Shown here: one piece after another, positions 12,558-64,000 of the stretch | Numbering within the stretch: the first letter of the stretch is position 1 | How the letters are laid out: each line of letters begins with the position of its first letter | Assembly (NCBI GenBank): GCA_017615835.1 | Contig: JAFZZI010000002.1 | Location: 1-64,000 of the forward strand | From: Bacteroidaceae bacterium | GTDB lineage: Bacteria; Bacteroidota; Bacteroidia; Bacteroidales; Bacteroidaceae | Reading direction: 5' to 3' | Length of the DNA stretch: 64,000 bases | Notes under the pieces: generated by a model | What the model saw: the letters and a program-made list of their open reading frames with translations, nothing else | The model's database searches: none | Told to the model about the DNA's origin: nothing | Position numbers and translations under genes: made by a program

Positions 12558-12599
12558 TGAAAAAGACGGGCAAAAGCTCATTCCTATAAATAATATTTG

Positions 12600-12607
12600 T
12601 ATCTTTG
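12600..12607 (+). promoter_or_regulatory. Bacteroidota -7 box before the DUF177-rpmF operon
   Basis: TATCTTTG ends 20 bases before the ATG at 12628. The possible GTG start at 12607 would fall within the promoter, so the ATG was chosen. Confidence 0.6.
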
Positions 12608-12627
12608 TGGCCCGAAAATTTTGTTCA

Positions 12628-13149
12628 ATGGGAAAGTTGGGCGCATACAAGATTGACCTTAAGGGTCAGAAAGAGGCTTCGGCATCGTATGGCTGGGTCG
12701 TTGACAGTGACTATTTCACCGCACTGGATGTGGAGGATATCCGCAGGGGTCGTGTCAATGTATCGCTCGACGTGACAAAGGTTTCAAATCAGTTCGTTCT
12801 GTCTTTCGTGCTCAAGGGTGATGTTATCTTGCAGTGTGACCGCTGCCTGGACGACATGGTTCAGGAGATTGATACTACAGGAGAGTTGAAGGTGCGCCTT
12901 GGAGAGGATTTCGCCGATGACGGTGATGTAGTAGTGGTGCCGGAACAGGATGGTACAATTAATGTTTCGTGGTATATATATGAGTTCATTTCTCTGGCTG
13001 TGCCGTTGAAGCATGTGCACGCTCCGGGTAAGTGCAACAAGGCGATGTCGGAGGAACTGGACAAGTATTCGGCATCAGAAGAGGATGAGGGAAATTCACC
13101 GTCTGATCCGCGCTGGAGTGAACTGGAGAACCTGAATCTGGATGATTGA
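12628..13149 (+). CDS. DUF177 (YceD-type) protein
   Basis: A 173-residue protein. The family features are the central hydrophobic strand block, a CDRCLDDM cysteine motif (near residue 71), the LRLG/V-type strand, and a C-terminal region ending in DPRWSELENLNLDD, typical of DUF177. Family members accumulate with, and are required for, 23S rRNA and large-subunit biogenesis in plants and bacteria. The constant position directly before rpmF (38 bases) supports a link to ribosome assembly. Confidence 0.85.
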   Translation: MGKLGAYKIDLKGQKEASASYGWVVDSDYFTALDVEDIRRGRVNVSLDVTKVSNQFVLSFVLKGDVILQCDRCLDDMVQEIDTTGELKVRLGEDFADDGDVVVVPEQDGTINVSWYIYEFISLAVPLKHVHAPGKCNKAMSEELDKYSASEEDEGNSPSDPRWSELENLNLDD

Positions 13150-13187
13150 ATTTGAATGAATGACGATAATCAATAAAAAGTAAGAAA

Positions 13188-13376
13188 ATGGCACATCCTA
13201 AAAGAAGACAGTCGAATACTAGGACTGCAAAGAGAAGGACTCACGACAAGGCTGTTGCTCCGACGTTGGCTATCTGCCCGAACTGCGGTGCATGGCATGT
13301 ATATCATACCGTTTGTGGTGAGTGTGGTTACTACAGAGGCAAGCTTGCGGTCGTAAAAGAGGCAGCTGCTGAGTGA
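13188..13376 (+). CDS. rpmF: 50S ribosomal protein L32
   Basis: A 62-residue basic protein. The MAHPKRRQSNTRTAKRRTHD start is diagnostic of L32, and the two CxxC pairs (CPNC and CGEC) form a zinc ribbon. It is followed by an intrinsic terminator. In many bacteria rpmF leads a fatty-acid operon; here the GTPase gene era comes next instead. Confidence 0.97.
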   Translation: MAHPKRRQSNTRTAKRRTHDKAVAPTLAICPNCGAWHVYHTVCGECGYYRGKLAVVKEAAAE

Positions 13377-13395
13377 TTTTAACTGAAAGGAAAAG

Positions 13396-13424
13396 AAACG
13401 CACCGCTTGCGATGCGTTTTTTTT
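13396..13424 (+). terminator. Intrinsic terminator between rpmF and era
   Basis: AAACGCA / TGCGTTT stem (13396-13402 with 13413-13419) and a T run to 13424, ending only 16 bases before the era ATG. It leaves little room for a separate era promoter, so partial read-through is likely. Confidence 0.75.
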
Positions 13425-13440
13425 GTATTTGGGACAAGTG

Positions 13441-14322
13441 ATGCACAAGGCTGGCTTTGTAAATATTGTGGGCAACCCCAACGTGGGGAAATCTACTCTG
13501 ATGAACATTCTGGTCGGAGAGAAAATCTCTATTGCGACGTTCAAGGCGCAGACGACCCGTCACCGTATCATGGGGATAGTCAACACTGAGGAATCGCAGA
13601 TTGTCTTTTCTGATACGCCCGGTGTGCTGAAGCCTAACTATAAGCTTCAGGAGTCGATGCTGGCTTTCTCGGAGTCGGCGCTGGTGGACGCGGACGTTTT
13701 GCTCTACATGACGGATGTGGTGGAGAAAATTGACAAGAACAGCGATTTTGTCGAGAAGGTGGCCCGTCTGGATGTGCCGGTTCTGGTGCTTATCAATAAG
13801 ATTGACCTGACTGACCAGCAGGCCCTGGAAAAGATGGTGGATGAGTGGCACACCATATTTCCGAAGGCTGAGATTATCCCTATCTGTGCAAAGACGGGTT
13901 TTGGAATTGATTTTGTAAAGAAAAGAGTTAATGAACTGATTCCACCTTCACCTCCCTATTTCGACAAGGATCAGCTGACTGACAGGCCCGCCCGCTTTTT
14001 CGTGTCCGAGATTATACGGGAGAAGATTCTGCTGAACTATGACAAGGAGATTCCATACTCTGTGGAGGTAGTGGTGGAACAGTTCAAGGAGAACCGTAGC
14101 AGAATTCTTATAAGCACGGTTGTCTATGTCGAACGCGAGTCGCAGAAGGGGATTCTGATTGGGCATGAAGGCTCGGCGATGAAGAAGGTAGCGACATCGG
14201 CACGCAAGGATCTTGAGAAGTTCTTCGGAAAGAAGATTTTCCTTGAGGTGTTCATCAAGGTTGACAAGAACTGGCGCTGCTCGGACAGGGAACTGGCAAA
14301 CTTTGGTTACAATCCGAAATAA
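13441..14322 (+). CDS. era: GTPase Era
   Basis: A 293-residue Ras-like GTPase with a C-terminal KH domain that binds the 3' end of 16S rRNA during 30S maturation. G1 GNPNVGKST at 11-19, G3 DTPG at 58-61, G4 NKID near 121, and a KH segment with [22 protein letters not shown] near 235, seen as [10 protein letters not shown]. The ATG at 13441 gives the usual [11 protein letters not shown] start. Nine bases separate it from der. Confidence 0.96.
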
Positions 14323-14330
14323 TTCTGACT

Positions 14331-15644
14331 ATGGGCAATCTGGTAGCTATCGTGGGACGCCCGAATGTGGGCAAGTCGACTCTGTTCAACAGACTGACGC
14401 AGAGCAGGCAGGCTATTGTGGATGACGAGGCCGGCACTACGCGCGACCGCCAGTATGGTAAGTGCGAGTGGGGCGGTCGTGTATTCTCGGTGGTGGATAC
14501 TGGCGGCTGGGTGGTCAATTCTGATGATGTGTTCGAGGAGGAGATACGGAAGCAGGTTGAGGTGGCTATTGATGAGGCTGACCTGATTCTGTTCATGGTG
14601 GATATCAAGACTGGGGTGACTGACCTTGATGATGCGGTTGCCCGCATTCTGCGCAAGTCTGAAACTCCGGTGATACTGGTGGCCAACAAAATGGATTCTT
14701 TCGAGTTACAGTATCAGGCGGCTGAGTTCTACCGACTTGGGTTGGGCGATCCGGTTTGTCTGTCCGCGGCAAATGGCAGCGGCTCGGGCGAACTGCTCGA
14801 CATTGTGCTCGAGAAGTTGGTTGAGAAGCCTGAGGAGGTGTCGGATGAGGAAATTCCCCGGTTCGCGGTTGTGGGACGCCCGAATGTGGGAAAGAGTTCG
14901 ATTGTAAATGCTTTTATCGGTGAAGACCGGCATATTGTGACTGAGATTGCCGGTACAACCCGCGATTCTATATATACGCGGTATGACAAGTTCGGGTTCG
15001 ATTTCTATCTGGTCGATACTGCGGGGATACGCAGGAAAAGTAAGGTAGAGGAGGATCTTGAGTTCTATTCGGTGATGCGTTCGATTAGGGCAATCGAGAA
15101 CTCGGATGTCTGTATTCTGATGCTTGACGCGACACGCGGTTTAGAGAGTCAGGATATGAACATTGTTTCGCTCATAGTGAAGAACCAGAAGGGACTGGTA
15201 GTCGTTGTGAACAAGTGGGATCTTATAGAGGATCGCTCGGCTACGGTGATGAAGAATTATGAGGAGGCTATCAGGGCACGTCTGGCACCGTTCGTGGATT
15301 TTCCGATTGTCTTCACATCTGCTGTGAACAAGCAGCGTATTATGAAGGTTCTTGAGGTGGCAAAGGAGGTTTGCCTGCACCGGCAGTACAGAGTATCGAC
15401 CGGTAAGTTGAATGCTGAGATGTTGCCGTTGATTGAGGCGTATCCGCCCCCTTCGATGAAGGGCAAGTATATCAAGATCAAGTATTGCATGCAGTTGCAG
15501 GGCCCTTCGATTCCGTCGTTTATCTTCTTCGCGAACCTGCCTCAGTATGTGAAGGAGCCTTACAAGCGTTTTCTGGAGAATAAGATACGCGAGAGGTGGA
15601 ACTTCAGCGGTACGCCGATTAATATTTTCATCAGACAGAAGTAA
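14331..15644 (+). CDS. der: GTPase Der (EngA)
   Basis: A 437-residue double-GTPase of 50S assembly. The first G domain has [12 protein letters not shown] at residues 8-19 and the second has [12 protein letters not shown] near 183, each with its own DTxG and NKxD motif (DTGG, NKMD; DTAG, NKWD). A C-terminal KH-like domain follows (TGKLNAEM onward). Cotranscribed with era. Confidence 0.97.
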
Positions 15645-15651
15645 TGAACAG

Positions 15652-15680
15652 AAAAAGCCGCCGCAGGGCGGCTTTGTTTT
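15652..15680. terminator. Bidirectional terminator between der and the M6 peptidase gene
   Basis: AAAGCCGCC / GGCGGCTTT stem (15654-15662 with 15667-15675), GCAG tetraloop, A run on the left and T-rich run on the right, serving both convergent genes. Confidence 0.85.
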
Positions 15681-15681
15681 T

Positions 15682-17478
15682 CTAAAAGACGATGGCCTTG
15701 TGCGCGGTGCCGCCGGCGCGGATCAGGTATATGCCTGGCTGGAGGCTGACGGTGGACGAGCCTTGGATCGTGGATTGCAGTCTGCTGGAGATGGACCAGA
15801 CGGTGACCGTAATTTCGGAGGGAGCGGTGACTGTGAGGTAACCCCGGCCGGCTGTGACGCTTAGGCCTGTGTCCTGACTGACGGCTTTAACTGGGGTTGC
15901 GGTGCCTATGGCTTCAAAACGGACGGTGCCGTCGGAGTAGGTGATGTTGTGTATTGTAAAGTCGGTCTGGATGGCTCCGTTGATGGAGGCGGCGGGAAGA
16001 CTGTTGTATGTGATGCTATCTTTGTTACCGTAGGGGTAGAGGTCGTCGGCCTGTGTCTGGGTACTGTAGATGTAGTCGGCTGGTATTATTGAGTAACCTT
16101 TGTTAGAGGCGCTGACATTGACTGTGTTGCCGGACCAGGCTCTGGTGGTGTATGATACGGCTGTAGCCATGAGACCGAGGCTGGGCTGGAAACGGAACCA
16201 GCCGGTTTTGCCATGGTTTTCGAGTATGATGAACTTGTGAGGGTCTTCTGTGTTCAGACGATAGGCTGCTTTGCCATCGTCAAGGGCGGAAAGGCTGTAC
16301 CGGCCAGGGGATTGAATAATTTCGAGATCCATCCATCCGAGAGAGAAGCGCTCGAAGGCTGTCATGCCGGTAGGTGCAAAATCGTTGTTGTCGTAGAGGC
16401 CGTAGTCCATCAGGCTCCAGGACTTGAGGGCAAAGACTTTCTCAGAGCGGGTGTCATAGAAGTCGGGAAGCCCGAGTGCATGGCAGTATTCGTGACAGAA
16501 CAGCCCGATTCCGTCGATGATGGTGTCGGTGTTGTAGAACAGTTCGCAGGAGCAGATGCCACTGGCCACTTTGGTTTGTCCGAGGTTCAGGGAGAGAGGC
16601 CTGTAGTGGGGCCAGATAGTGTTGGGGTCGGAATGGGAGTAGTTCTCACCGCGTCCGGCGTAAAGCAGATAGACGGCATCGATGACTTTGTCGTCATCGG
16701 TGCAGAAGTCGGAGGTCTTGAGCAGTCCCCTCCGATATGCCTTCTGGCAGATTTCGGTCATGAGTTGCTCGGCATGGACGTCATCATTGCCTTGATTCTT
16801 GCCGTAGTAGATGTAGCTGCTGTCGGCAGTGATGGGTCCTATGATCTTGAATGTGGGAGAGAACTGGCCGAAAGACTGGCTTTCGAAGTAGTCGCGGACG
16901 CTGCCTATGGCGCCGATGCCGGTGTTCCCGTTGTACGTCAGCCTGGAGGTGTAGCCGCGGAGGTTCATCTGGTCGTCAATCCTTTTGCGTATCAGGGAAT
17001 CGCTGAGAGTGAACGGCTTGTCGGGGAAATTCACCAACAGTACAGGTATGTTGACTTGACCGGTGGTTTTTGCAGTGGAGATGGAGTACTCTCCGGGTCG
17101 GGCTACTTGGTCGTAGAGGTCCGAGTCGATGAGGTTGCCTGCCTTAAAGGCTTCATGCAACTCCTGCTGACTGACGTGGCTGAGGGCTGTCTTTTCGGCA
17201 GCAGTACGCTGAGAAGGGTCGTGGGCAAGCATGTCTCCGGGAATTGGCAGGCCGTCGCTGATGCTGGTGACGTAGCGGCACGCCCCGTCATCGCAGAGGG
17301 TGACCATGATGCCGTCTGAGGTGATATGGAAACGGTTGTGTTCATTGCCTGAGAGACTGATGCTGACTGTGCTGCCATCTGGTTGACTGTGCGTAAAGAA
17401 ACTTAGACGTGCGGGTGCACCTGTAAGTGCTGATACAATCAATGTCAGGCAGAGGAGTGAAAGCAGTTTCTGTCTCAT
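15682..17478 (-). CDS. M6 family metalloprotease with type IX sorting domain
   Basis: A 598-residue secreted zinc peptidase. A signal peptide (MRQKLLSLLCLTLIVSALTG) is followed by a propeptide-like region, then the M6 (immune-inhibitor-A-like) catalytic domain. The zinc site is HEYCHALGLPDFYD. The last about 75 residues look like a T9SS type A C-terminal domain, with VWSIS..GSSTVSLQPGIYLIRAGG and a final K-A-I-V-F, meaning export through the T9SS to the surface or outside. PorQ, a part of that system, is encoded at 6975-7952. The start is the ATG at 17478, which begins the signal peptide; a longer frame runs back into lptB. It lies four bases after lptB. Confidence 0.87.
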   Translation of the reverse strand: MRQKLLSLLCLTLIVSALTGAPARLSFFTHSQPDGSTVSISLSGNEHNRFHITSDGIMVTLCDDGACRYVTSISDGLPIPGDMLAHDPSQRTAAEKTALSHVSQQELHEAFKAGNLIDSDLYDQVARPGEYSISTAKTTGQVNIPVLLVNFPDKPFTLSDSLIRKRIDDQMNLRGYTSRLTYNGNTGIGAIGSVRDYFESQSFGQFSPTFKIIGPITADSSYIYYGKNQGNDDVHAEQLMTEICQKAYRRGLLKTSDFCTDDDKVIDAVYLLYAGRGENYSHSDPNTIWPHYRPLSLNLGQTKVASGICSCELFYNTDTIIDGIGLFCHEYCHALGLPDFYDTRSEKVFALKSWSLMDYGLYDNNDFAPTGMTAFERFSLGWMDLEIIQSPGRYSLSALDDGKAAYRLNTEDPHKFIILENHGKTGWFRFQPSLGLMATAVSYTTRAWSGNTVNVSASNKGYSIIPADYIYSTQTQADDLYPYGNKDSITYNSLPAASINGAIQTDFTIHNITYSDGTVRFEAIGTATPVKAVSQDTGLSVTAGRGYLTVTAPSEITVTVWSISSRLQSTIQGSSTVSLQPGIYLIRAGGTAHKAIVF

Positions 17479-17482
17479 TTCA

Positions 17483-18256
17483 TCACAGTTGGAAACTTTT
17501 CTTCCTGAGCTCGAAACTCTGGCTGAGGTATTTGGCTCTGACTGTCGGATTTGCAGCCAGTTCCTCGGGAGTGCCGTGGAAAAGGATGCGCCCTTCGTAC
17601 AGAAGGTAGGCACGGTCGGTTATGCTGAGAGTTTCGTGTACATTGTGGTCGGTGATGAGGATGCCTATGTTGCGGAACTTGAGTTTCCACACTATCTGCT
17701 GGATGTCTTCGACGGCGATGGGATCGACACCGGCAAATGGCTCGTCAAGCATGATGAACTTTGGCTCGATGGCAAGGCAGCGGGCAATTTCGGTGCGGCG
17801 GCGTTCGCCTCCGGAAAGACGGTCGCCCAGGTTCTTGCGGACTTTTTGAAGGCTGAATTCCTCAATGAGACTCTCAAGCTTTTGACGCTGGTAGTCTATT
17901 GGCTTGTCAGTGAGCTCAAGAACGGAGGCGATGTTGTCTTCGACGCTCATCTTGCGAAAGACGCTGGCTTCCTGTGCCAGGTATCCGATACCCTTGCGGG
18001 CTCTCTGATATACGGGATAGGCAGTTATGTCTTCATCTCCCAGAAAAATGCGTCCTTCGTTGGGGGTTATGAGTCCGGTAGCCATATAGAAAGTTGTGGT
18101 CTTTCCGGCTCCGTTGGGGCCCAGCAGACCGACGATCTCGCCTTGGCGCACATTGATAGAGACGTGGTTGACCACGGTTCTCTTGCCATATCTCTTCACC
18201 AGATTCTCTGTATGCAGTACAGTGTTGTCCTGACCTGCAGTGTCTGCACTTTCCAT
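17483..18256 (-). CDS. lptB: LPS export ABC transporter ATP-binding protein
   Basis: A 257-residue ATPase powering extraction of lipopolysaccharide from the inner membrane with LptF/G/C. Walker [10 protein letters not shown] near 45, Q-loop YLAQEAS, signature LSGGERRR, Walker [14 protein letters not shown] and H-switch ITDHNV, all as in LptB. LptB-type wording [11 protein letters not shown] is intact. It has its own -7 box upstream. The OstA-like gene at 29338 belongs to the same pathway but is not adjacent. Confidence 0.94.
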
Positions 18257-18281
18257 GACCCGTTTGTGAGTTATATGCCTG

Positions 18282-18289
18282 CAAAGATA
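18282..18289 (-). promoter_or_regulatory. Bacteroidota -7 box for lptB
   Basis: TATCTTTG on the minus strand, 26 bases upstream of the lptB ATG. A TTG at 18313-18315 could be the -33 element, at a long spacing. Confidence 0.5.
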
Positions 18290-18387
18290 GCGGTTTTATT
18301 CGTTTGTCTATACAATAGATAATAGTTGCTAATAATTATTATAAATTTTGCGGTTTATGAATATTGGTTTAAATTCGCATTCTATTA

Positions 18388-18404
18388 GATGCTCCGGAAG
18401 CATC
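18388..18404. other. Hairpin in the 5' leader of tig
   Basis: GATGCT-CCGGA-AGCATC, a perfect 6-bp stem 44 bases before the tig ATG. There is no T run, so it is not a standard terminator. It may be a leader structure or protein site. Confidence 0.5.
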
Positions 18405-18447
18405 CGAGTGCGTTGCCGCAATGATTTTTAACTGATATAAAAACGAA

Positions 18448-19953
18448 ATGAACATTTCTTTTGAGAATGTAAGCAAGGTACAGGGCCTGCTTACCGTGAG
18501 TCTTGAGAAGTCTGACTATCAGGAGAATCTCGAGAAGTCTATGAGGGAGTACAAGAAGAAGATCAATATGCCGGGTTTCCGTCCGGGCATGGTGCCTATG
18601 AGTCTGATTCAGAGGATGTACGGCAAGAGTATCAAGGCTGAGGAGATTAACAGGATACTGCAGGAAAAAGTGTCATCATACATAAGGGACAATTCCATTG
18701 ACATGCTGGGTGAGCCGTTGCCTAACAATGAGAAGGAGGCCGGCCAGAGCATGGATGACGATGATTTCAAGTTCTATTTCGACATTGCACTGGCCCCGCA
18801 GTTCGATACTTCGGTGAGCAGGAGCGATTCTGTCCCGTACTATGAGATTGAGGTCTCGGACGAGATGGTTGAAAGCCAGGTGAAGAGTTATGCACAGCGT
18901 AACGGCAGTTACGAGAAGGTTGACTCTTTTGAGGAGAATGATATGCTTAAAGGACGTCTGGTTGAACTGGATGCCGATGGCAAGGCTCTCGAAAACGGCA
19001 AAGTGATAGAAGAGGCTACGCTGATTCCGGGATATCTGCCGAACGAGGATGTAAAAAAACTGTTCAAGGGCGCAAAGGTCGGAACTGAGGTGCGTTTTGC
19101 TCCGGCTAAGGCATACAACGGCAATGCCGTGCAGATTTCGTCGCTTCTGAATTGCAGCAAGGAGGAGGCTGGAGAGGTCAATTCTGACTTCGCTTTCACA
19201 GTGAGTGATATTTCGCGTTTCGTGCCGGGTAAACTGAATCAGGAACTGTTCGACCAGGTATTCGGTAAGGATGCCGTCAAGAGCGAGGATGAGTTCAGGG
19301 CAAAGGTGCGTGAGTCGATGGCCGCGAGCTTCGTTCCCGACAGCGACTACAGGTTCCTGATTGATGTGCGCGAGTATATGACTAAACGTATCGGCAGACC
19401 TGAGTATGCTGAGGATCTGCTTAAGCGCATAATGGAGGCCAACAGGGGCGGGAAGGCTTCTGATGAATCGGAGGAGAGTTTCCAGAAGAGTCTTGATGAG
19501 CTGACATGGCACCTCGTGAAGGAGAGAATGGTCAAGGCCAACAGCATTAAGGTCGAGGAGAGTGATGTGCTGGCTCAAGCCCGCGAGGCCACGAGGGCAC
19601 AGTTCGCTCAGTATGGCATGATGAACATTCCCGATGAGTTGCTTGACAATTATGCCAAGGATATGATGAAAAAGCGCGAGACAGTTGACAATCTGGTGGA
19701 CCGCGCTGTGGAGTCGAAGCTGGTTGCTGCACTGAAGGGCCAGTTCAATCTTAAGAAAAAGAAGGTCAGCATGGCTGAGTTCAACAAACTGTTCGAGGCT
19801 GCCCCTGCTGCCGAGACTCCTTCAAAGAAGGCTCCTGCCAAAGCCAAGGCCGGAAAGGCTGCCAAAGAGAAGGCTGATGAGACGGCGGCTGAAGATAAGG
19901 CTGAGAAGAAGCCGGCAAGGAAGAGCACCAAAAAGGATTCTTCAAAGGAGTGA
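18448..19953 (+). CDS. tig: Trigger factor
   Basis: A 501-residue ribosome-associated chaperone. The N-terminal ribosome-binding domain holds NMPGFRPGMVPMSLIQRMYG around residues 31-50 (the GFRxGxxP signature). A PPIase-like middle region is poorly conserved, as is usual in Bacteroidota, followed by the helical C-terminal arms. The final about 55 residues are a Lys/Ala/Pro-rich tail (KKAPAKAKAGKAAKEK...), longer than in most trigger factors and probably disordered. Gene order tig-clpP-clpX is the classic chaperone-protease operon. The intergenic gaps are 42 and 10 bases. Confidence 0.95.
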   Translation: MNISFENVSKVQGLLTVSLEKSDYQENLEKSMREYKKKINMPGFRPGMVPMSLIQRMYGKSIKAEEINRILQEKVSSYIRDNSIDMLGEPLPNNEKEAGQSMDDDDFKFYFDIALAPQFDTSVSRSDSVPYYEIEVSDEMVESQVKSYAQRNGSYEKVDSFEENDMLKGRLVELDADGKALENGKVIEEATLIPGYLPNEDVKKLFKGAKVGTEVRFAPAKAYNGNAVQISSLLNCSKEEAGEVNSDFAFTVSDISRFVPGKLNQELFDQVFGKDAVKSEDEFRAKVRESMAASFVPDSDYRFLIDVREYMTKRIGRPEYAEDLLKRIMEANRGGKASDESEESFQKSLDELTWHLVKERMVKANSIKVEESDVLAQAREATRAQFAQYGMMNIPDELLDNYAKDMMKKRETVDNLVDRAVESKLVAALKGQFNLKKKKVSMAEFNKLFEAAPAAETPSKKAPAKAKAGKAAKEKADETAAEDKAEKKPARKSTKKDSSKE

Positions 19954-38979: not shown

Positions 38980-39054
38980 GGGCGTTTAGCTCAGCTGGTT
39001 TAGAGCATCTGCCTTACAAGCAGAGGGTCGGCGGTTCGAATCCGTCAACGCCCA
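38980..39054 (+). tRNA. tRNA-Val (anticodon TAC)
   Basis: A 75-base cloverleaf. Acceptor GGGCGTT pairs with AACGCCC, the D arm holds AGCTCAGCTGGTTTAGAGC, the anticodon loop CTTACAA carries TAC at 39015-39017, and the T arm has GGTTCGAATCC. The 3' CCA is not encoded. Because an accessory island with recombinase remnants begins right after it, the 3' half of this tRNA is a likely attachment site, but no second copy of that segment is seen within the window. Confidence 0.95.
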
Positions 39055-39065
39055 CAGCTGATAAT

Positions 39066-50678: not shown

Positions 50679-53600
50679 TTACGCCTGTAAAGCCTCAATG
50701 ATTGCTGCATAGTCGCTCCAGCCGCTCGCAGTCTGATATGCCGTCACGCTTGCCGCCGGCACGTATATGTGCGCAAGCGACGCGCACCTATCGAAAACAC
50801 CCCAGCCGAGTGCGGGAGGTGTCAGGGCGAGGACTGTCACTGTCTGCAGGTAGGTACAGTCTTTGAATATTCTATTTTTAATAGTATGCAACGTCGAAGG
50901 AAGTGTGACGTGTTCTAGCTCCAGACATTCCAAAAAGACATCGCCTCCATTTTCAGTCTCCGAGCCCCCCAAATATTGGATAGCGCCCAGGTCAGAGACA
51001 CTCTTCACTTTTGTCCCTTTGAAGGCGCTACCACCAAGCATTGTTAGGTTGGGCAGGCTAAGGCTGACATTTTCGAAGGCTAGGGTGCAGCCCTCAAACG
51101 CTCCGCTAGCGACCTCCGTCAGCGATGCCGGAAGGTTGATAGTCGTCAGCGATGTGCAGCCACTAAAAGCATTTGTACCTATGCGTGTGGCGGCCAGCGG
51201 CAATGAGACTTCTGCCAGCGATGTGCAGTTCTGGAACATCCCTCTCCTTGTGCCGGGCGAGACATCTGTTATGTTTCCGAGGCTCGCGACCTTCGTTATG
51301 CCCGACCCGTAAAAAGCGTCGGAGTAACTGTCTCCTGCATTAAGATACTGGAGAGCAGGCATGTTGACGATGCCAGTCACCTTGGTACAGCCTCGGAAGG
51401 CGCCATAACCAAGCCGTGTGACATTCGGCAGGTAGAGCCCGTTAATCTCAAGGTTAGCACAGTCAAGGAAGACGTTGCCCCCTCCATCTACTAGGTCATT
51501 GCCTATGGCCGTCAACACTGTCCAGTCAACATTCACAGTGCGGAGGCTGGTGCAGCCGGCGAAGGTTCTCGCCCCCAGCACGCGCACGGTGCTAGGCAGC
51601 GTAGCCTCCGTGAGGTTCAGGCACCCTTCGAAGGTGCCATGACGATTGCCGGGCGAAGTATTCACCACACTGCCGAGATCCAGCACGCGCGAGATGCCTG
51701 TATTTTCAAATGCACCGGAAGTAGAGTCATCGACTCCAAGTGTTGTAAGGCTGGGTAATCGCACGTCGCCCGTCAGGCCGGTGCAGTTCCTGAAGGCCCA
51801 ACGTTCTATCTGTGTGACATTCGGCAGATAGAGCCCGTCCATCACGAGGTTGGTGCAGCCGCTAAAAAGGCTGGCGCCGAGCAATGTAAGCGAGGAAGGA
51901 AGCTCTACGGATGTCAGGGCAGTGTTGTCCAGGAAATTATTTTCGTATATTTCGAGCAGCGAGGAAGGCAGGACGACATGTGACAAGGAGATACAGCCGT
52001 AGAAGACGTTTCGTCTTATCACGGTTACGGACTGCGGCAGCTCTACGGAGCGCAGCGACGTGCAGCCGTTGAACGTATATTCGCCAAGTGTCGCTATGCC
52101 GGTGAAGCGTGACAGCTCGTCGAAGCTGACAAGCGACGTGTTGCCGTTGAAGAGACTGCTCAGCGTCGTGACGGCAGCGGCCTCCTCGGACGTGATGCCG
52201 CCGTCGTGGTCGGTGTCCCAGTTCGCGAGGGCCACGGCGGAGACGACGGGGTCGGCGAATCTTATCCACAACTTCGCCGCGTCGATGTGCAGGCCCTGGA
52301 AGGTGCTCTCCAGCGTGCCTATGCTGTCCTCATAGGCGGCATCCACGGTGATGTCGCCCTGTATGACGGGTACGTCCGTCTCGAGACCGTCGGCGGTGAG
52401 ACCTTTGTATGTGTGGCTGTTGCCGTCCTTGTCTTTGTTGGCGGCGATGGCGGACAGCGCGTCAAGCAGCGTGCCGTTGCCCGTCCACGTGAAGTTGGTG
52501 ACGCGGATGAGCTGGAGCCGCTGCCCCTCACTGTTGAAGATGGAGGCGAGCATGCTGACGGCATCGGTGGCGCCGGCATCTTCCACCTCCAGACGTACCA
52601 CGCCCGCCAGCGAGGAGTACGAGAGGTTGGTCAGTCTCTTTACAGAGCGCAGTATTATTGCGCTGATGGTGGACGGCAGAGAGAGCGTCGTTATCTTGGA
52701 GCCCTCCGGCAACGTTATGTTGGTGACGGAGGTTCCGGCGAACAGTGCCTCGCGCAGGCGAGGACAGCCGCTCAGGTCAACGGCACTGGCCAGCGACGGC
52801 AGGTTACGCGCGTCGATGCTTTTCAGCGACGGGCAGTCGCCGATGCCCACTGACGACAGTTGCGAGGTGACCTCCAGTGCGTCTGCATCTCCAAGCTTCA
52901 GCACGCGCAGGCGCTTGCCGCTTATTGACGGTAGCGCAGCGGCGGTCGTCTTGCTGAGGTCACCTATGCTGGTGAGGTAGTCAGAAGCCACGATGTATAT
53001 GTTGGTGTCGGCGCCGGCCGGCCCTGTCAGCGTCACGGGCTCGCCCGCCATGACGCGCGACGCGGCTCCGACGCGGCTATTCTGTCCTATCAGGATGGCG
53101 GGGTAGAGGTCGAAGGCCGGTGTCAGCGTGAACGTCTCGGCGGCCAGCGGTCTGTATGAGAGACGGCCCAGCGATGCGTCGGAGCTGCCGGCGGCGAACG
53201 GGCCGTAGCGGTACAACGACATGCAGTAGAGCATGCGAAGCTCCACCCAGCGGCGCTCGGCCTCCAGATGGTCGCCCAGCGACTGCGCAAGCGGGTGTGT
53301 ATCGACGGAGGCGACGTATGCGCCGTTCTTCCACGCATCCTCGTAGGTATATTCGGCATCGTTGTTGTATGCCGTCTTGGTGAAATACCGCTGGGCCTTG
53401 CCCCAATAGTAAGCCTCGAAGAAGCCCATCAGACGCTCCATCACCGTCGTGCCGCTTCCTGCGGCGTACATCGCGCCCAGTATGTCGCGGCCCGTCTGAC
53501 GGCACTCGTCGGCGCAGCATTCGCCCACGAGCGTCCAGAAGACGCTATCCTCGCCACGGAAGACATAGCCCGTGCGTGAGTCGTCGAGGAAGTCGTGCAT

Positions 53601-56600
53601 CTCGATGCTGTACGGCTTGCGGCTGTGGCCCTGGTTGTCGATGTCGAAGATGGTGTCAAGGTCGTCCTGCCGCCAGCGCCACTTGCAGCCGTTGCCGCCG
53701 AAGCAGTACGGGTAGCTGTTCTTGGCGAAGTTGTCCGTAGCCCCGAAGATCTGCAGGAACACGAGGTGGAACAGCGCGTCGCGCTTGTCCCAGTACTGTT
53801 CCCAGTTCGCGAGGAAGTCCCCGCGGCGGGCTTCGCGGAACAGCTCGTTCTTTTCCGCGGTCGTCAGCCCCTCAAGGTCGGTGGCCTGACCGCCGTAGCT
53901 GACGTACTGGTCGAGCATGCTGACGCCACTGAACTCGTAGCGGCCTGTGCGTATGTCATGGTAGCACAGCTTGTATCGGTCGGGGCCCTCGCCGTCCAGC
54001 CAGAACTCGTAGTACTGGTACAGGCGGCCCGTCGCCGTGTCGCGCTGCGCCTCCCACGCCGCCACGTCGGCGTTAATGTCGGCGAGTGTTGAGGTGGTGC
54101 CCAATATAAGTGTGCTGTTGCGATACGCCACCTCGTAGGCCGGTTTGAAATACTGCTCCATGGCTGCTGTCACGGCATCCTCGGAGGCCGTCTTGTCGGT
54201 GTCGAGCCCGCGGAAGTTGCCAGCCTCCCACCCGGCCTCGTAGTCAGCGACACCCTTGACGACACACAGAGCCTCCTCCTCTCCGACATAGCGGACGTCA
54301 CTGTTCCACGGATAGCGGAAGGTGGTGAGACGCACGCTGTGGTCCAGACCTTCCAGCGACATCAGCGTGTCGCTGAATCGCTCGTCATCCCACTTGAAAG
54401 TCGGCTTGTCGCCTTTGTCGGGGCCCACGGTGAAGAGGCCGATGAACCGGTATGAGTACAGGCCCTCGGCGCCCTCGACAGGCTCCTTGACAAAGCCGTA
54501 CACAGGCTCCATGTAGATGGCCGTGCGGCCGCCGGCCTCGTTGGGGCCCGCCACGATGTCATGAAGGTCGTTGTAGGCCGCAGTGGTGCCCATCTTGTGG
54601 CCCTGCATAGAGCTGGCCACATTCTTTTTCGCCGTGATGCGCTTCAGTGCCGGATAGTCCGCGCCGCGGAACCGTGCAGTCTTGGAATCCGCGGGCTCGC
54701 CCCAGTCTCCGGAGGACACGTCCCAGTAAGATACGGGGCATTTCTTTGCGTCATTGCTCTTGTCAATGCGGAAACGCAGGTTCCAGCGGTAGTAGTTCAT
54801 GGATGTGGTGCCCTGTCCGGACGTCTCCACGCCGAATATCTTCAGCGAGTCCGCGGGACGGTCGTGCCAGCGGAACTCGACATTGGATTTGGTGGCATAT
54901 TTCTTGTCCATACCCCAGGCGGGGAGCACCCCTTCCGGCTCGGCTATCTCTATCACCATCACGTTGGCCTCGCGGCTCACGGCATCATAGTCCACGTGCC
55001 AGCCGTCATCCACGACAGAGCGCCCTGTCGCATACGCCAGCTGCTTGTCGGCCTGCGTCGGCAGCGAGGCGACATAGTTGGCGAAGGCGTCTGCGGAGCC
55101 GAAGGCACGGTTGTAGCAGCGCACGCCGTAGAGATACAGGTCTGCGGCGGAGCTGCCCAGTACCAGCGGCGCATCTATGCTCCACACGTCGTTGTCGCCA
55201 TAGGCGAACTGGCATTTTTTCGCTCCGTTGACGTATATCTGCGCAAGGTTGCCGTAATTGCCCTTGTAGTTGCGTGTCAGCGTGACGATGACGTTGACGC
55301 GCTCGCCCTCCTTGAAGGTATAGCTCTGCTCCAGGTCGCCGGAGGCGGCAGAGAGGTCGTTGCTGTGCAGCGTCACCTGCTCGGGCCTTATGCGCAGACC
55401 GCGGAAAGCTGCCGACAGGAGGTCGTCCATCACGGCTATAACAGGCTCGTCGTAGTCAGAGGCGTTGCGCACGGCGAAGGTCAGCTCGACGGTGCGGGCA
55501 TTGCCCACGTCGCCCAGCAGCGGCCATGAGATGACGGGACGCGCACCTGCAGGCACGAGCAGACAGCGGCGACCCGCCTCGTCGGCAGTCCATCCGTCGG
55601 TGCCGTCCACCCACGCTATGCCGTCCCATGTCGCGGCGATGCGGCTGCCGTCCACCTCGTTGACGGCGTAGTGCTGGCGGTTGCTGCGGTTCGCGGGATT
55701 GATGTAGAGCGTTGCGCCAGGCGTTGCGGGGTAGCTCGCGGCGTTGTCGATGGCGATGTCCGCGGCGGCGGTGTTGCCGCCATCCACCTCTATTGTCACA
55801 TGTGCAGTCAGCTCGGACGAGTCCGAGGCCACTTCCACCTGGTGTGAATACACGTGGGGTTGCGAGGTGGTCTGATTCTCTATTATGTCGTCCTCGACGA
55901 TATAGGACGTCTGGCCGCCGAGACGCACGGACGCGTTGACGGTGACGGGAGCCGCCACAGCGCTCTCGCCGTCATACAGCGCATACGAGAAAATGTCGTT
56001 GGCGGCACCGTTGACGAGGCTGCCGGCAATATTGTTCATTACCGCGAGGCGTGCCGTCAGCACGTCACCGGCGGCGACGCAGATGATACTGAAGCGCACG
56101 TGCTCTGTGGCCAGTGTGTCGCTGGTCACCCACATCTCGACTGTATATATGCCGCTGCCGGTCTCGGGGAACGTCAGCGATGGATAGAAGTACTCGTTCT
56201 CGGTGTATGTCTGGGTGCCAAGATTCACTTCCACGTCAGCCGGAGTATAGCCGTCGCCGCGTACGCGGATGTGCAGCGTCTTGCTTACAGCGCCGCCGAT
56301 GTTGAGCCCGCCAAGCGAGTAGGGACGGCCCTCGATGAAAGGGGCCCACCAGTTGAACCTGTCAGCGGCGAGGTACATGCTCGTCAGTGTGGCGTCATAT
56401 ATGGCAGAGGTCTGCTCGTGTGTCTCCGAGCCCACTGCCATCACGCGGATGCGGTTGCGGCCGTTGGCGAGCCAGCGGCGCACGTCGAAGGTGAAGGTGT
56501 CGCCGTAGCGCAGCGTCACACCCTCCATGATGGTGTTCCATTTCCCGGCGGCGCCGGTATCGACGGCTATCTGGAGTGTCGAGTCCTCGCGTGTGTCGCT

Positions 56601-57053
56601 CCATTCGATGTCAGTCACCGCCTTGCGCTGGCTCAGCACGCTCACGCTGACGAGAGCCTCCTGCTGCTGCACGGTGTAGTAGTACACGCCCGTGGGAGAG
56701 TCGCCCAGGATGCGGTACTGATAGACGGTGCCCGTGAAGTTGAAGATACAGCTCGACACTATCAGGTCGCTCTGCTCCGGCTGCCCCTCATTTAGCCACT
56801 GCTGGCGGTCGGCCGCGTCGCGGAAGTTATACAGCGTGCTCGTCGCCGACACAAAGAAGGATGCGCCCGCACGGGCGTTCAGCGCCTCCTGTATCTTGAG
56901 TTTCAGAAACTGTTCTATCTGGAGACCGCTAAAGGGCAGGCCGTCGCTCGACGGCTCGAAATGGGAAATACGGCCTCGCCCGTCAGGGGCGCAGTTGCCG
57001 TTCCAGTCCTGTTCAAAACTCTCAAGCTCGTCTATGGTAGGTTTCTTTGCCAT
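50679..57053 (-). CDS. Giant phage fibre/adhesin with LamG-like and BspA leucine-rich repeat domains
   Basis: A 2124-residue protein (2135 if the ATG at 57086 is used; MAKKPTIDELESFEQDW at 57053 preferred). A phage N-terminal region is followed by beta-rich modules, a LamG-like domain (about 510-660), a conserved central part with FGGNGCKWRWRQDDLDTIFDID near 1130, here noted as CKWRWRQDDLDTIFDID, an EF-hand/dockerin-like calcium loop DTDHDGGITSEEA near 1616, and about 20 BspA-type (LRR_5) repeats to the end (TFNGCTSLRSVELP, AFRNCTGLTG). It ends in SGWSDYAAIIEAL, as BspA surface proteins do. It is probably the receptor-binding tail fibre; no signal peptide is present. Confidence 0.85.
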   Translation of the reverse strand: MAKKPTIDELESFEQDWNGNCAPDGRGRISHFEPSSDGLPFSGLQIEQFLKLKIQEALNARAGASFFVSATSTLYNFRDAADRQQWLNEGQPEQSDLIVSSCIFNFTGTVYQYRILGDSPTGVYYYTVQQQEALVSVSVLSQRKAVTDIEWSDTREDSTLQIAVDTGAAGKWNTIMEGVTLRYGDTFTFDVRRWLANGRNRIRVMAVGSETHEQTSAIYDATLTSMYLAADRFNWWAPFIEGRPYSLGGLNIGGAVSKTLHIRVRGDGYTPADVEVNLGTQTYTENEYFYPSLTFPETGSGIYTVEMWVTSDTLATEHVRFSIICVAAGDVLTARLAVMNNIAGSLVNGAANDIFSYALYDGESAVAAPVTVNASVRLGGQTSYIVEDDIIENQTTSQPHVYSHQVEVASDSSELTAHVTIEVDGGNTAAADIAIDNAASYPATPGATLYINPANRSNRQHYAVNEVDGSRIAATWDGIAWVDGTDGWTADEAGRRCLLVPAGARPVISWPLLGDVGNARTVELTFAVRNASDYDEPVIAVMDDLLSAAFRGLRIRPEQVTLHSNDLSAASGDLEQSYTFKEGERVNVIVTLTRNYKGNYGNLAQIYVNGAKKCQFAYGDNDVWSIDAPLVLGSSAADLYLYGVRCYNRAFGSADAFANYVASLPTQADKQLAYATGRSVVDDGWHVDYDAVSREANVMVIEIAEPEGVLPAWGMDKKYATKSNVEFRWHDRPADSLKIFGVETSGQGTTSMNYYRWNLRFRIDKSNDAKKCPVSYWDVSSGDWGEPADSKTARFRGADYPALKRITAKKNVASSMQGHKMGTTAAYNDLHDIVAGPNEAGGRTAIYMEPVYGFVKEPVEGAEGLYSYRFIGLFTVGPDKGDKPTFKWDDERFSDTLMSLEGLDHSVRLTTFRYPWNSDVRYVGEEEALCVVKGVADYEAGWEAGNFRGLDTDKTASEDAVTAAMEQYFKPAYEVAYRNSTLILGTTSTLADINADVAAWEAQRDTATGRLYQYYEFWLDGEGPDRYKLCYHDIRTGRYEFSGVSMLDQYVSYGGQATDLEGLTTAEKNELFREARRGDFLANWEQYWDKRDALFHLVFLQIFGATDNFAKNSYPYCFGGNGCKWRWRQDDLDTIFDIDNQGHSRKPYSIEMHDFLDDSRTGYVFRGEDSVFWTLVGECCADECRQTGRDILGAMYAAGSGTTVMERLMGFFEAYYWGKAQRYFTKTAYNNDAEYTYEDAWKNGAYVASVDTHPLAQSLGDHLEAERRWVELRMLYCMSLYRYGPFAAGSSDASLGRLSYRPLAAETFTLTPAFDLYPAILIGQNSRVGAASRVMAGEPVTLTGPAGADTNIYIVASDYLTSIGDLSKTTAAALPSISGKRLRVLKLGDADALEVTSQLSSVGIGDCPSLKSIDARNLPSLASAVDLSGCPRLREALFAGTSVTNITLPEGSKITTLSLPSTISAIILRSVKRLTNLSYSSLAGVVRLEVEDAGATDAVSMLASIFNSEGQRLQLIRVTNFTWTGNGTLLDALSAIAANKDKDGNSHTYKGLTADGLETDVPVIQGDITVDAAYEDSIGTLESTFQGLHIDAAKLWIRFADPVVSAVALANWDTDHDGGITSEEAAAVTTLSSLFNGNTSLVSFDELSRFTGIATLGEYTFNGCTSLRSVELPQSVTVIRRNVFYGCISLSHVVLPSSLLEIYENNFLDNTALTSVELPSSLTLLGASLFSGCTNLVMDGLYLPNVTQIERWAFRNCTGLTGDVRLPSLTTLGVDDSTSGAFENTGISRVLDLGSVVNTSPGNRHGTFEGCLNLTEATLPSTVRVLGARTFAGCTSLRTVNVDWTVLTAIGNDLVDGGGNVFLDCANLEINGLYLPNVTRLGYGAFRGCTKVTGIVNMPALQYLNAGDSYSDAFYGSGITKVASLGNITDVSPGTRRGMFQNCTSLAEVSLPLAATRIGTNAFSGCTSLTTINLPASLTEVASGAFEGCTLAFENVSLSLPNLTMLGGSAFKGTKVKSVSDLGAIQYLGGSETENGGDVFLECLELEHVTLPSTLHTIKNRIFKDCTYLQTVTVLALTPPALGWGVFDRCASLAHIYVPAASVTAYQTASGWSDYAAIIEALQA

Positions 57054-57186
57054 GTTATATTTTTTTGTTGTTACTAATGTTTCCATACATCCTCATGGCT
57101 CCAGGTGGAATCGTGAAGCCATACGCCGCCGCCGAAGCAGCTGGCCGCCGCGGACATCGCCGCCATCAGAAATCGTCTCAGACTGC

Positions 57187-60005: not shown

Positions 60006-61727
60006 TCAGGCTACCTGGCCCACAATACCCTCAAACAGTTTCCAGTCTTCCAGGTTGTTGTCCCACTCAACAATGTCACCAGCCTTGAATCCGGCAGTGT
60101 CATCATCGGCAGTAAGGAAGTACTTCTTAAGCTTCAGGCTTGCGTCAGCTGCAATCTCCTCAGCGGTAGGCAGTTCATTTACAGGCTCAAAGGTTGCCTG
60201 GATGGAACCGATCTTAGCAGCCTTGGCGGCAGCAGCCTGTGACGGGCAGGCCAGTACGGCATTGTGCCCAAGCAAGTCAACGCAGTCAATACGGATAAGG
60301 TTGTACTCCTTAGCCTCACGTGCCTCGCCGGTCTTGGACATGTCACGCTCCTTTCTCTCTTCTGGCTTCAAATACGGACGCTCGGCGTTCTCAAGGTCAA
60401 GCACAGCCATGTACTCGGTGTAGCCCAGGTCATCCAGTGTCTGTGACCAGATAAACTCCAGTGAGCCGAAGTTATCCTCGTACATTCTGATCTTGATACC
60501 GAACTTGTTAACCTCTACCTTACCCACATCCTTATGCTTGATGCTGGAGTTAGCATACTTGATGATACGCTTAAGCTCCTTCTTGCCGCAGAATGCGTAA
60601 GCATGGTCGTTGGTAGCATTGTTGGTAAACATTAGGGTGGTTATTGCCAGGAAGTCATCATCGTTCATCTCGTTACCGTGAGTGTAAAGAATAGGAATCT
60701 GACGGAGCATACCCTTCTCGTGGAACACGCTCTCACGGCCGTTGGTTGCCTTGACATCTATCTGGTCATGGAACTGCTTACCGTTCCAGTGTGAACGTGC
60801 GCACTTACGCTTGAAGTTATCCTTGGCGTGAGTAAGAATGTTACGGGTCTTCCATGACATCTTAGTTTCACTCTCCTCAAAGCGTTCAGTCACCACAACA
60901 GTCTCAATCTTCTTCTGCAGGAAGCATTGACCGGGAGCAGGCTGGAATGATGATGACTGGACGTTCATCTGTGACTCAGAGGCTGCGGTTGCCATGCAAT
61001 GGAATATTGCGGTAGGCTCGATGGTTACGGTTGTACCGCTTGCAGTGGGAGGATTCAAAACTTTGAACTTAATCTTCTCACCCTGGAAGTCGTTGTCCAG
61101 TACAAAGAGCGTAAGCTCACCATCAGCAATCTGGTTGCCTGCCTCATCCTTAGTGTAACCCTGTACGCCTTCTATTACTACATCTGAATAGTTGATGAGT
61201 ATCTCCCAGTTTTCAAGGTCTTCCTTATCTATTGATATGGTCTTGTTGTTGCTGTTATAAGTAATGGTAATGTTACTGTCGCCGGTATATACGGAATCAA
61301 GGTCTGATGAGCCGTCAACCCAATGATTATGAACATAATCCTTAGCCTTGACAGGTTTACATACACGTGCAATGATAAGCTCCTCGGGATACTTGAACTT
61401 ACGGAACTCAACCGTCTTCTCATCGTAGTCCTCAGCCATCAAACCGGCATCACGTAGGTTGGTAGCCGATGACGGCTGTCCGGGCAGCTGTGTCAGGTTA
61501 CCCTGTTCATCGGGCTTGACAGCTTCACCAGCTGGCCTGCCGCCAGGATTGCTTTCACTTACAGGTTCTATATTCTCAGATGGATTGGGGTCAGCCGCAG
61601 GCTCTACCGGTTCCACCACTGCCATCGCAAAGCCGCTGCTGGCTCCCAGCAGAACAGCCACAACCACGAGTAGAGCTGACAGCAAACTCATTTTGTGGTT
61701 CTTCAGATAATTAAAAATCTTCTTCAT
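60006..61727 (-). CDS. Major capsid protein (SU10/HK97-like) with signal-peptide-like N terminus
   Basis: A 573-residue protein. The last about 290 residues fit the SU10-type HK97-fold capsid family: an N-arm with FLQKKIETVVVTERFEES, a loop with GNEMNDDDFLAITTLMF, CGKKELKRIIKYA, FGSLEFIW, MAVLDLENAERPYL and NLIRIDCVDLLGHNAVL. Unusually, it begins MKKIFNYLKNHKMSLLSALL and continues with a hydrophobic core (14-30), ending in an AMA site (34-36), and then a Pro/Glu/Asn-rich linker to about 115. An alternative start at Met35 would remove the hydrophobic part, but the 20-base gap to the scaffold gene favours the full form. It is the central late gene. Confidence 0.82.
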   Translation of the reverse strand: MKKIFNYLKNHKMSLLSALLVVVAVLLGASSGFAMAVVEPVEPAADPNPSENIEPVSESNPGGRPAGEAVKPDEQGNLTQLPGQPSSATNLRDAGLMAEDYDEKTVEFRKFKYPEELIIARVCKPVKAKDYVHNHWVDGSSDLDSVYTGDSNITITYNSNNKTISIDKEDLENWEILINYSDVVIEGVQGYTKDEAGNQIADGELTLFVLDNDFQGEKIKFKVLNPPTASGTTVTIEPTAIFHCMATAASESQMNVQSSSFQPAPGQCFLQKKIETVVVTERFEESETKMSWKTRNILTHAKDNFKRKCARSHWNGKQFHDQIDVKATNGRESVFHEKGMLRQIPILYTHGNEMNDDDFLAITTLMFTNNATNDHAYAFCGKKELKRIIKYANSSIKHKDVGKVEVNKFGIKIRMYEDNFGSLEFIWSQTLDDLGYTEYMAVLDLENAERPYLKPEERKERDMSKTGEAREAKEYNLIRIDCVDLLGHNAVLACPSQAAAAKAAKIGSIQATFEPVNELPTAEEIAADASLKLKKYFLTADDDTAGFKAGDIVEWDNNLEDWKLFEGIVGQVA

Positions 61728-62644: not shown

Positions 62645-63058
62645 TTGAAAGATACAGAGCTCAAACGTCAGCGGGACCGTGACCTCTACAAGGTCTATGT
62701 GCGCTCACTCAGTACTGGTCATTTCGCCAGTATCGGTGAAGCTGCCGACCACGCTCGCCGCCAACCTGCACCACAATGGTATATCTCCGCACGGACCGCC
62801 AGCCTGCTTATCGGCCGTATCATGACCCACCAGTCGCTCATCAACCTCAACAGCAACTCACGTCAGCGTATATGGTATCTCTATGACGCATACCGCGATT
62901 ATCTCAAAGCCCACCCGGGCTGCACGCTCTCACGTGAGCTCATACTGGAGCAGCTGGTAGAACAGCCGGCACCGCATTTCTTTGTGTCAGCCGGCCGAGC
63001 CAAACATATAATCATCTATGAACGCCGCGCTGCTATCAGGCGCATGAGGAGACAATGA
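62645..63058 (+). CDS. Putative small terminase subunit (internally duplicated)
   Basis: A 137-residue basic helical protein, first of the rightward cluster. Start is a TTG at 62645; no in-frame ATG exists before the upstream stop. Two related halves are visible: RRQPAPQWYISARTASLLI and VEQPAPHFFVSAGRAKHIII (each with P-A-P-x-x-x-x-S-A). The order (this gene, rhomboid, terminase) suggests the DNA-recognition subunit of a terminase, but no diagnostic motif is known to me. Confidence 0.6.
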   Translation: MKDTELKRQRDRDLYKVYVRSLSTGHFASIGEAADHARRQPAPQWYISARTASLLIGRIMTHQSLINLNSNSRQRIWYLYDAYRDYLKAHPGCTLSRELILEQLVEQPAPHFFVSAGRAKHIIIYERRAAIRRMRRQ

Positions 63059-63516
63059 GAGTAATTATAATCATAATATGCAGCATCCTGTTACTTACAG
63101 GCGTGCCTCAGTGGCTTACCGATACACACTGGCCGCTGCTCTGTGCCATGCTCTATCCGTTTTTCCACGCCAACCTCTTTCACCTGTCCGTCAACATGAT
63201 TGCCGTCTGGCCGCTATACGCACCCCAGCGTAAGAACAAAGGTCTGCTGCTGCTTGCCAGCTGGCTCATATCGTGTCTTGTATGGCCGCTGGCACCGCAT
63301 CCGGTAGTAGGTATCAGCAACCTGCTGTATGCCAGCATTGGCTGTCTCTCTCCGGTACTGCGCCCAGGCTACTGGCGCTCACCGGCTGTCATTACGTTCT
63401 ACGTCATGACCTTTGCCATGGTATTCCTGCCTTTCGTGGCAGGCTGGTCCCATATAGCAGCGCTCGCGCTCGGCATTGTCGTATCACTCATCCGAACCAA
63501 GACCCATGGCACGTAA
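63055..63516 (+). CDS. Rhomboid-family intramembrane serine protease
   Basis: A 153-residue membrane protein with about six hydrophobic segments. It has the rhomboid signature: H38-xxxx-H43-xxx-N47 (FHANLFHLSVNM), the G86-x-S88 active-site motif (GISNLLYASIG), and the partner His133 in a S-H-x-x-x-x-x-x-G helix (SHIAALALG). The catalytic Ser/His pair is complete; the usual Gly after Ser is Asn. It overlaps the previous gene by four bases (ATGA) and the terminase start by 11 bases, so all three are coupled. Such a protease in a phage packaging cluster is unusual. Its target is unknown. Confidence 0.82.
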   Translation: MRVIIIIICSILLLTGVPQWLTDTHWPLLCAMLYPFFHANLFHLSVNMIAVWPLYAPQRKNKGLLLLASWLISCLVWPLAPHPVVGISNLLYASIGCLSPVLRPGYWRSPAVITFYVMTFAMVFLPFVAGWSHIAALALGIVVSLIRTKTHGT

Positions 63517-64000
63517 AAACACTGACACAGCGCAGCAGCACCTCGATATGACACAAGAGGAGTTAATTGCTGTCCTTGACATAGTTGCCGAGAACCAGCG
63601 CCGCTGTGCCACGTACGCTGCCATCTATGACCCTATCACCGGACAAGGCCTCTCTGAGCTGATGGATGAGGAGCGCAGCCAGCTCCGCATACCGGACTTT
63701 GCCGTACCTGTCCAGTACGTACCCAAACGTATGATGAAAGTAAAGCTCATACGTAACATAGTACGTGCTGGCGGCATACAGAAATTCATTGACCGCCACA
63801 AGTGGAAGTCCGATGACATACCAACCTTTCAGGAAATAGAAGATGAGCTGCGCCGCATACGTCATAAGTATGACTTCTGCAACTGGGCCTATGAGTGTAT
63901 ATGGATAGATTTCAAGCTGGGAGGCAGCGGCCGTTTCCGTCTCAACTACGCCCAGCTACAGGTGCTCAAGCTATGTATGATACTCCTTTGGGCCAAAGTA
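63506..64000 (+). CDS. Probable large terminase subunit, N-terminal part (cut by window edge)
   Basis: Open from the ATG at 63506 to the last base (165 codons). A helical N terminus (about 1-125) is followed by FKLGGSGRFRLNYAQLQVLK, which resembles the segment just before the Walker A motif in many TerL proteins (F-x-L-N-x-x-Q). The Walker A motif itself would be beyond the window, so the call rests on this motif and on the gene order. It overlaps the rhomboid gene by 11 bases. Confidence 0.55.
   Translation, partial: MARKNTDTAQQHLDMTQEELIAVLDIVAENQRRCATYAAIYDPITGQGLSELMDEERSQLRIPDFAVPVQYVPKRMMKVKLIRNIVRAGGIQKFIDRHKWKSDDIPTFQEIEDELRRIRHKYDFCNWAYECIWIDFKLGGSGRFRLNYAQLQVLKLCMILLWAKV

Follow-up and report, generated by a model that had tools for sequence, protein, structure and literature searches.

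To our knowledge, no tailed-phage morphogenesis module uses an intramembrane protease; the prohead proteases of T4, SPN3US and HK97, which cut an N-terminal extension off a head protein before DNA is packaged, are soluble enzymes. Proheads of T4 and SPN3US assemble at the surface of the inner membrane and are set free from it once proteolysis has occurred, before packaging, as set out in the relevant passages of two reports (PMC9026906, PMC7411985). Most rhomboid proteases have no known substrate and their roles are hence obscure, according to one treatment of their specificity (PMC2941825). Phage-encoded rhomboids are known from the Stenotrophomonas phages DLP3 and DLP5, where they stand among hypothetical and sugar-related genes and, in the region described, not beside head genes (PMC7326821). 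Here we analyse a rhomboid gene in 64,000 nucleotides of DNA from a Bacteroidaceae bacterium (assembly GCA_017615835.1, contig JAFZZI010000002.1, positions 1 to 64,000; the window hereafter). Its product is very short (153 amino acids) and is encoded between a small gene that is small terminase (TerS)-like in position and the gene for the large terminase (TerL). Wherever the major capsid protein (MCP) was readable, we found the rhomboid only in phages with an N-terminal hydrophobic anchor on that protein, and this suggests that the capsid protein is cut from the membrane by the protease.

Judged from its sequence, the window gene encodes a rhomboid protease whose active site is intact and under selection, and it is a resident of the head-assembly genes in a group of tailed phages of Bacteroidales. 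It has the HxxxN motif (H43, N47), the GxS motif (G86-I-S88) and the catalytic H133, with the Ser88/His133 dyad intact; the predicted structure is a six-helix, GlpG-like rhomboid fold, and the charge pattern is N-in/C-in as in GlpG-type rhomboids (PF01694). The intact layout that a preliminary description had read in this product is thus borne out. PF01694 matches the window protein at 33 bits (cut-off 22.6) and recognises 38 of 40 family members at E 0.001, and identity to the window protein falls as low as 18% within the family. Among the 77 distinct homologues read across all loci, Ser88, Gly86, Asn47 and His43 are each present in 77/77 and His133 in all 76 that are readable, the 77th being cut by the locus end; His38 is present in 76/77, the exception (L235) having Arg there while retaining the catalytic Ser and His. 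A pseudoprotease was therefore dropped as a reading, the dyad being kept, and an incidental cargo gene was set aside as unlikely, the active site being invariant and the placement conserved. Pfam to E 1 returns Rhomboid alone, and PHROGs a single weak family of unknown function (E 0.15), which places the protein in no head-protease sequence family known to these databases. By role it is a candidate head protease, being encoded with head genes and varying with the type of MCP; among the rhomboid, scaffold-like and MCP proteins, the three that were scanned, there was no match to a canonical prohead protease.

The gene overlaps the upstream small gene (SML) by 4 nt (ATGA) and TerL by 11 nt. The preliminary description had the gene coupled on both sides to terminase-type genes; both overlaps stand, with SML TerS-like only by its position upstream of TerL; its family (phrog_27246) is of unknown function and its best PDB match is at E 0.49, nothing there being significant. 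A search with TerL led to the Bacteroides phages BKO1-TP3, BS-TP4 and BF1-TP2 (34-36% TerL identity), which carry SML, rhomboid and TerL in the identical order, with rhomboids 26-28% identical to that of the window, opposite a scaffold-like gene and an anchored MCP. The same cassette recurs in dozens of further loci, which were gathered by scanning viral contigs with a TerL profile, by scanning with a rhomboid profile and by searching genomes. The rhomboid is thus no random cargo and belongs to a head and packaging module, as had been proposed: its catalytic residues are conserved and it adjoins terminase in many divergent phages, neither loss of S88 or H133 nor absence of terminase neighbours being found. 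By tblastn the window rhomboid gave no match at E 0.01 in 50,697 phage records, despite the divergent forms in the three Bacteroides phages, and the window MCP gave no phage match at 1e-5; a class-level genome search with an MCP profile returned 3 of 395 genomes. SML and the rhomboid also occur as an overlapping pair separable from TerL, at L068 9867-10743 and at L198 19167-19903, the latter beside scaffold and MCP with TerL 10 kb off. In the GenBank record of BKO1-TP3 (PQ571269.1; L152/L153) the product name given to the rhomboid is 'glycoside hydrolase' and that given to TerL 'tail spike protein', with annotation notes that cite structure matches. In genus g21 (L115 3501-4458 and most of L116-L136), two soluble genes, mostly of 156-170 aa and resembling each other by eye, fill the rhomboid position between SML and TerL.

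Co-occurrence of rhomboid and anchor was scored in two sets of loci. The first comprised 120 loci with TerL, reduced to 84 distinct ones at 95% TerL identity: 42 had rhomboid and anchor; five had the rhomboid and an unread MCP; 23 had neither; six, all of one genus, had the anchor without the rhomboid; six had no adjacent rhomboid and an unread MCP; and in two, one of them anchorless, the rhomboid state was unknown. No rhomboid with an anchorless MCP occurred among the 84. The second set was fetched after this rule had been noted, using different TerL profiles and extending to further families of the order. It comprised 167 new loci, 166 with TerL; 81 had representatives already and 64 added distinct loci. 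Here rhomboid and anchor were found together in 10, rhomboid with an unread MCP in three, neither in 17, anchor without an adjacent rhomboid in four and no rhomboid with an unread MCP in 26, the state being unknown in four. One of those four anchored loci, L198, proved on inspection to have both, its TerL lying 10 kb away, so that 11/11 second-set rhomboid loci have the anchor (10 by the fixed rule, L198 by inspection). For the sets combined, the anchor is present in 53/53 rhomboid loci with a readable MCP and the rhomboid is missing from 40/40 anchorless loci of known state (23 and 17). Anchor scores were bimodal in the first set (<=1.11 against >=1.79), and over all loci they do not overlap (<=1.11 in anchorless and >=1.65 in anchored MCPs).

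An MCP was scored as unread when it had no profile match or a cut-off N-terminus (12/84 and 33/64 in the two sets); the MCP profile was built from four sequences for the first set and 45 for the second, with slightly different N-terminal windows. Left out before counting were 30 short loci (L107-L136), 15 regions of which were taken longer as L137-L151, and loci within 95% TerL identity of a kept locus. In four anchored loci (L062, L079, L086 and L101) the rhomboid was found by six-frame reading, overlapping a spurious TerL extension; L068 and L087, each with a rhomboid match elsewhere in the locus, were counted by the adjacency rule as rhomboid-negative with MCP unread. Loci that came from rhomboid-based scans favour rhomboid-positive cases, which bears on frequency and not on the link to the anchor. 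As a control independent of the rhomboid profile, the spacing from SML to TerL was measured: it is 358-563 bp in 52/52 loci with rhomboid and anchor (42 and 10). In the 37 anchorless loci (20 and 17) whose SML lies on the same strand as TerL it ranges from -64 to 161 bp, which leaves no room at this place for a diverged rhomboid missed by the profile. Of the remaining anchorless loci, two have SML on the opposite strand and one (L140) has no SML match.

The window MCP, which qualifies as such by its HK97 fold and by capsid profile, begins MKKIFNYLKNHK, followed by a hydrophobic segment that ends in G-F-A-M-A. In the predicted model an N-terminal helix spans residues 12-26, the predicted local distance difference test (pLDDT) score stays below 50 over residues 30-56 and 68-108, and the HK97 fold starts at about residue 102. 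The codons for residues 1-38 have the look of a translated stretch under constraint: synonymous changes (13 of 27.5 sites) far outweigh nonsynonymous ones (7 of 86.5) by comparison with L004. In the 42 rhomboid-bearing loci of the first set the residue at the end of the anchor, the putative P1, is Ala in 40 and Cys in two, and P4 is hydrophobic in 41 (V 20, F 16, I 2, and A, C and Y), with one Gly; the six anchored MCPs of the genus without a phage rhomboid retain the Ala and the hydrophobic P4. A simple -3/-1 rule for signal peptidase is obeyed by 29 of these 42 MCPs and broken by 13. The motif at the anchor end accordingly resembles that described for rhomboid recognition, whose key positions are given as P4, P1 and P2' in the relevant part of PMC2941825. 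In a survey of hydrophobic segments that covered the window from 40000, C3 60001-100000, all of BKO1-TP3 and 34 kb of BF1-TP2, no recognised head protein but the MCP had an N-terminal anchor; other anchored proteins were present, several without an assigned role. One of these, a 111-aa single-anchor protein (C3 68261-68596), was dropped as a candidate substrate when no like gene was seen, by eye only, in the surveyed stretches of BKO1-TP3 and BF1-TP2.

The preliminary description had expected a phage-specific substrate, which is likely, the best candidate being the N-terminal anchor of the MCP. The conserved active site, a predicted fold like that of GlpG, the cassette, an HK97-fold MCP with anchor and motif, and the co-occurrence of rhomboid and anchor lead us to infer cleavage, its site and its role in release or maturation: the anchor is probably the substrate of the phage rhomboid and is cut for release or maturation of the capsid protein, in a manner analogous to prohead proteolysis. 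In this scheme the anchor, which is followed by a linker predicted to be largely disordered and then by the HK97 fold, would tether the MCP or the growing prohead to the inner membrane. Cleavage by the rhomboid at the conserved hydrophobic-x-M-A motif, or close to it, would then leave the capsid protein or prohead free to expand and to package DNA. The likeness to T4, SPN3US and HK97 would lie in the N-terminal extension removed from a head protein before packaging and in prohead release from the inner membrane; the difference lies in the enzyme, theirs being soluble and unrelated and the one proposed here an intramembrane rhomboid. A wider proposal, that these phages build heads from a membrane-anchored HK97 capsid protein, with procapsids that form on the inner membrane or around it and are released for packaging by the rhomboid as maturation protease, we put forward tentatively.

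A TerL tree of 101 loci (TerL below 400 aa dropped, hence without L101; 52 rhomboid rows) requires 15 changes of the rhomboid and 12 of the anchor. At least eight gains or losses of the rhomboid are forced by supported TerL branches. Nine supported independent pairs differ in the rhomboid; the anchor differs in the same way in seven, in the opposite way in none and not at all in two (p 0.016), and the first set alone gives the same way in 6/7 and the opposite in none (p 0.031). On a tree of the MCP body (N-terminus removed, 69 rows) the rhomboid needs two changes and the anchor one, and on an SML tree, where few branches are supported, the rhomboid needs eight. By this comparison of TerL and MCP-body trees, rhomboid presence follows the MCP type and not the coupled TerL, and the link of rhomboid with anchor is not simple ancestry; recombination of a linked block could contribute to the co-occurrence. 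The terminase connection of the preliminary description therefore fails as a functional one: the rhomboid is repeatedly gained or lost on the TerL tree, the SML-rhomboid pair stands away from TerL in L198 and L068, and its presence goes with the MCP type.

Several observations weigh against the anchor as substrate. For nine anchored MCPs (the six from one genus, and L196, L199 and L202) no phage rhomboid was found in the vicinity, so that the anchor can exist without one. Host rhomboids may serve these proteins: in the genus of the six, 10/10 genomes checked carry two rhomboids, on contigs other than that of the prophage, and for L196, L199 and L202 the Pfam model finds none on the contig of the prophage, with at least two elsewhere in each genome. 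On the MCP-body tree the anchorless MCPs form one clade, the anchor having changed once there, and the pairs of the SML tree are too few (two the same way, none opposite, one without difference; p 0.5). Among rhomboid-bearing loci, rhomboid distances track TerL and SML and not MCP, the partial r with MCP given TerL being -0.20 (40 rows). The charges around the MCP anchor, judged by eye, point to an N-in orientation, unusual for a rhomboid substrate; the search for substrates set out in the part of PMC2941825 concerned with it covered N-out/C-in proteins only. An N-in anchor would leave the MCP body facing the periplasm unless the folded body blocks translocation, at odds with cytoplasmic assembly. 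The same paper, in its treatment of type II substrates, allows a looping-back route if the motif lies at a sufficient distance from the membrane segment (PMC2941825), and the MCP has a long linker that is predicted to be disordered. Asp or Glu follows the putative P1 in 14 of 37 ungapped rows. As a separate observation on host rhomboids, in the genome of the window (G000, 81.8% complete) the phage rhomboid is the only rhomboid found, and 14 other genomes checked have at least two.

Two of these points, the single anchorless clade and the tracking of SML and TerL by rhomboid distances, are also what speaks for linkage only, whereby rhomboid and anchored MCP travel as a block of head genes (a span of about 3.5 kb in the window takes in MCP, scaffold, SML and rhomboid) and the real substrate is another phage protein such as the scaffold, a lysis protein or a minor virion protein. 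We consider this unlikely, as L033, which has rhomboid and anchor, and its relatives L035 and L032, which have neither, share TerLs 87.1% and 84.5% identical in amino acids and an alignable scaffold-SML region (66-67% nt), while identity between their MCP bodies is 26% and 25%, and L035 and L032 lack the rhomboid. With the intervening scaffold and SML alignable while both MCP type and rhomboid change, this is the clearest case against pure linkage; the MCP being the only recognised anchored head protein of the surveyed stretches also counts against it, with the several anchored proteins of no known role borne in mind.

It is distinctly unlikely that the rhomboid acts on host membrane proteins, in superinfection exclusion, counter-defence or membrane quality control, with its place in a late operon serving for timing. 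Bacterial rhomboids do act in membrane protein quality control, in the relevant part of PMC7232013, and the setting of the DLP3/DLP5 gene described above would suit such a role (PMC7326821); an accessory gene would not, however, be expected to track the capsid type in every readable case, 53/53 and 40/40. Cleavage of the MCP N-terminus by host signal peptidase I, with the rhomboid merely clearing the remnant or mis-inserted protein, we regard as very unlikely: the N-terminus is laid out like a signal peptide with Ala at -1, and most of these MCPs fit the simple rule, but in the 13 that break it position -3 is taken by Met, Phe, Tyr or His, residues disfavoured there by signal peptidase I, and export would take the capsid protein out of assembly. 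A non-proteolytic, Derlin- or iRhom-like chaperone for capsid insertion is hardly credible, since pseudoproteases lack catalytic residues and Ser88 and His133 are retained here throughout.

If the rhomboid does cut the capsid anchor, this is a natural enzyme-substrate pair with about 60 distinct examples at hand, and a new mode of head maturation that couples capsid release to packaging; it would also explain the odd signal-anchor on these capsid proteins, and it yields a testable statement on the assembly site of these Bacteroidales phages. Rhomboids in other phages are already known, as in DLP3/DLP5, and the window type is present in three GenBank phages under automatic names. The literature searched gave no account of a tailed-phage head templated on the membrane and matured by a rhomboid, and no paper tying a rhomboid to a phage capsid protein was among the matches listed in open-licence full texts.

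Features of the head-gene region of the window (positions are those of the window; residues are numbered within each protein)
Feature	Position	Strand	Remarks
Rhomboid intramembrane serine protease, 153 aa	63055..63516	+	
Codons of rhomboid residues	H38 63166-63168; H43 63181-63183; N47 63193-63195; S88 63316-63318; H133 63451-63453		
SML, small protein of 137 aa	62645..63058	+	TTG start; phrog_27246, E 1.3e-13
TerL, 5' part	63506..64000	+	ATG 63506; phrog_2, E 3.4e-16; ends at contig position 65671
Scaffold-like protein, 258 aa	61748..62524	-	Between MCP and SML; role inferred from position
MCP, 573 aa	60006..61727	-	Proposed substrate; predicted HK97 fold from about residue 102
MCP residues 1-38	61614..61727	-	K-rich N-terminus and hydrophobic anchor
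MCP motif G32-F33-A34-M35-A36	61620..61634	-	Candidate rhomboid recognition site (P4 Phe, P1 Ala)

The scaffold-like gene and the MCP gene are divergent from SML, rhomboid and TerL, and a P22-type portal lies past TerL on the contig of 105 kb. The scaffold-like protein matches phrog_22323 (E 3.2e-30), a family with no function assigned there, to which the BKO1-TP3 gene at the same position also belongs (E 1.2e-138). Elsewhere in the window, a 2135-aa protein (50679-57086, - strand) has repeats of leucine-rich type in its C-terminal part, seen by eye, and matches several large phage families of unknown function; it is possibly a host-contact protein. In L002 a 2564-aa protein (12212-19906, - strand) is encoded downstream of the portal, and longer ones adjoin the portal in BKO1-TP3 and BS-TP4. 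BKO1-TP3 also has an annotated reverse transcriptase (L152 23818-25308, - strand), possibly from a diversity-generating element. The sole tRNA gene of the window is a tRNA-Val at 38980-39055 (+ strand).
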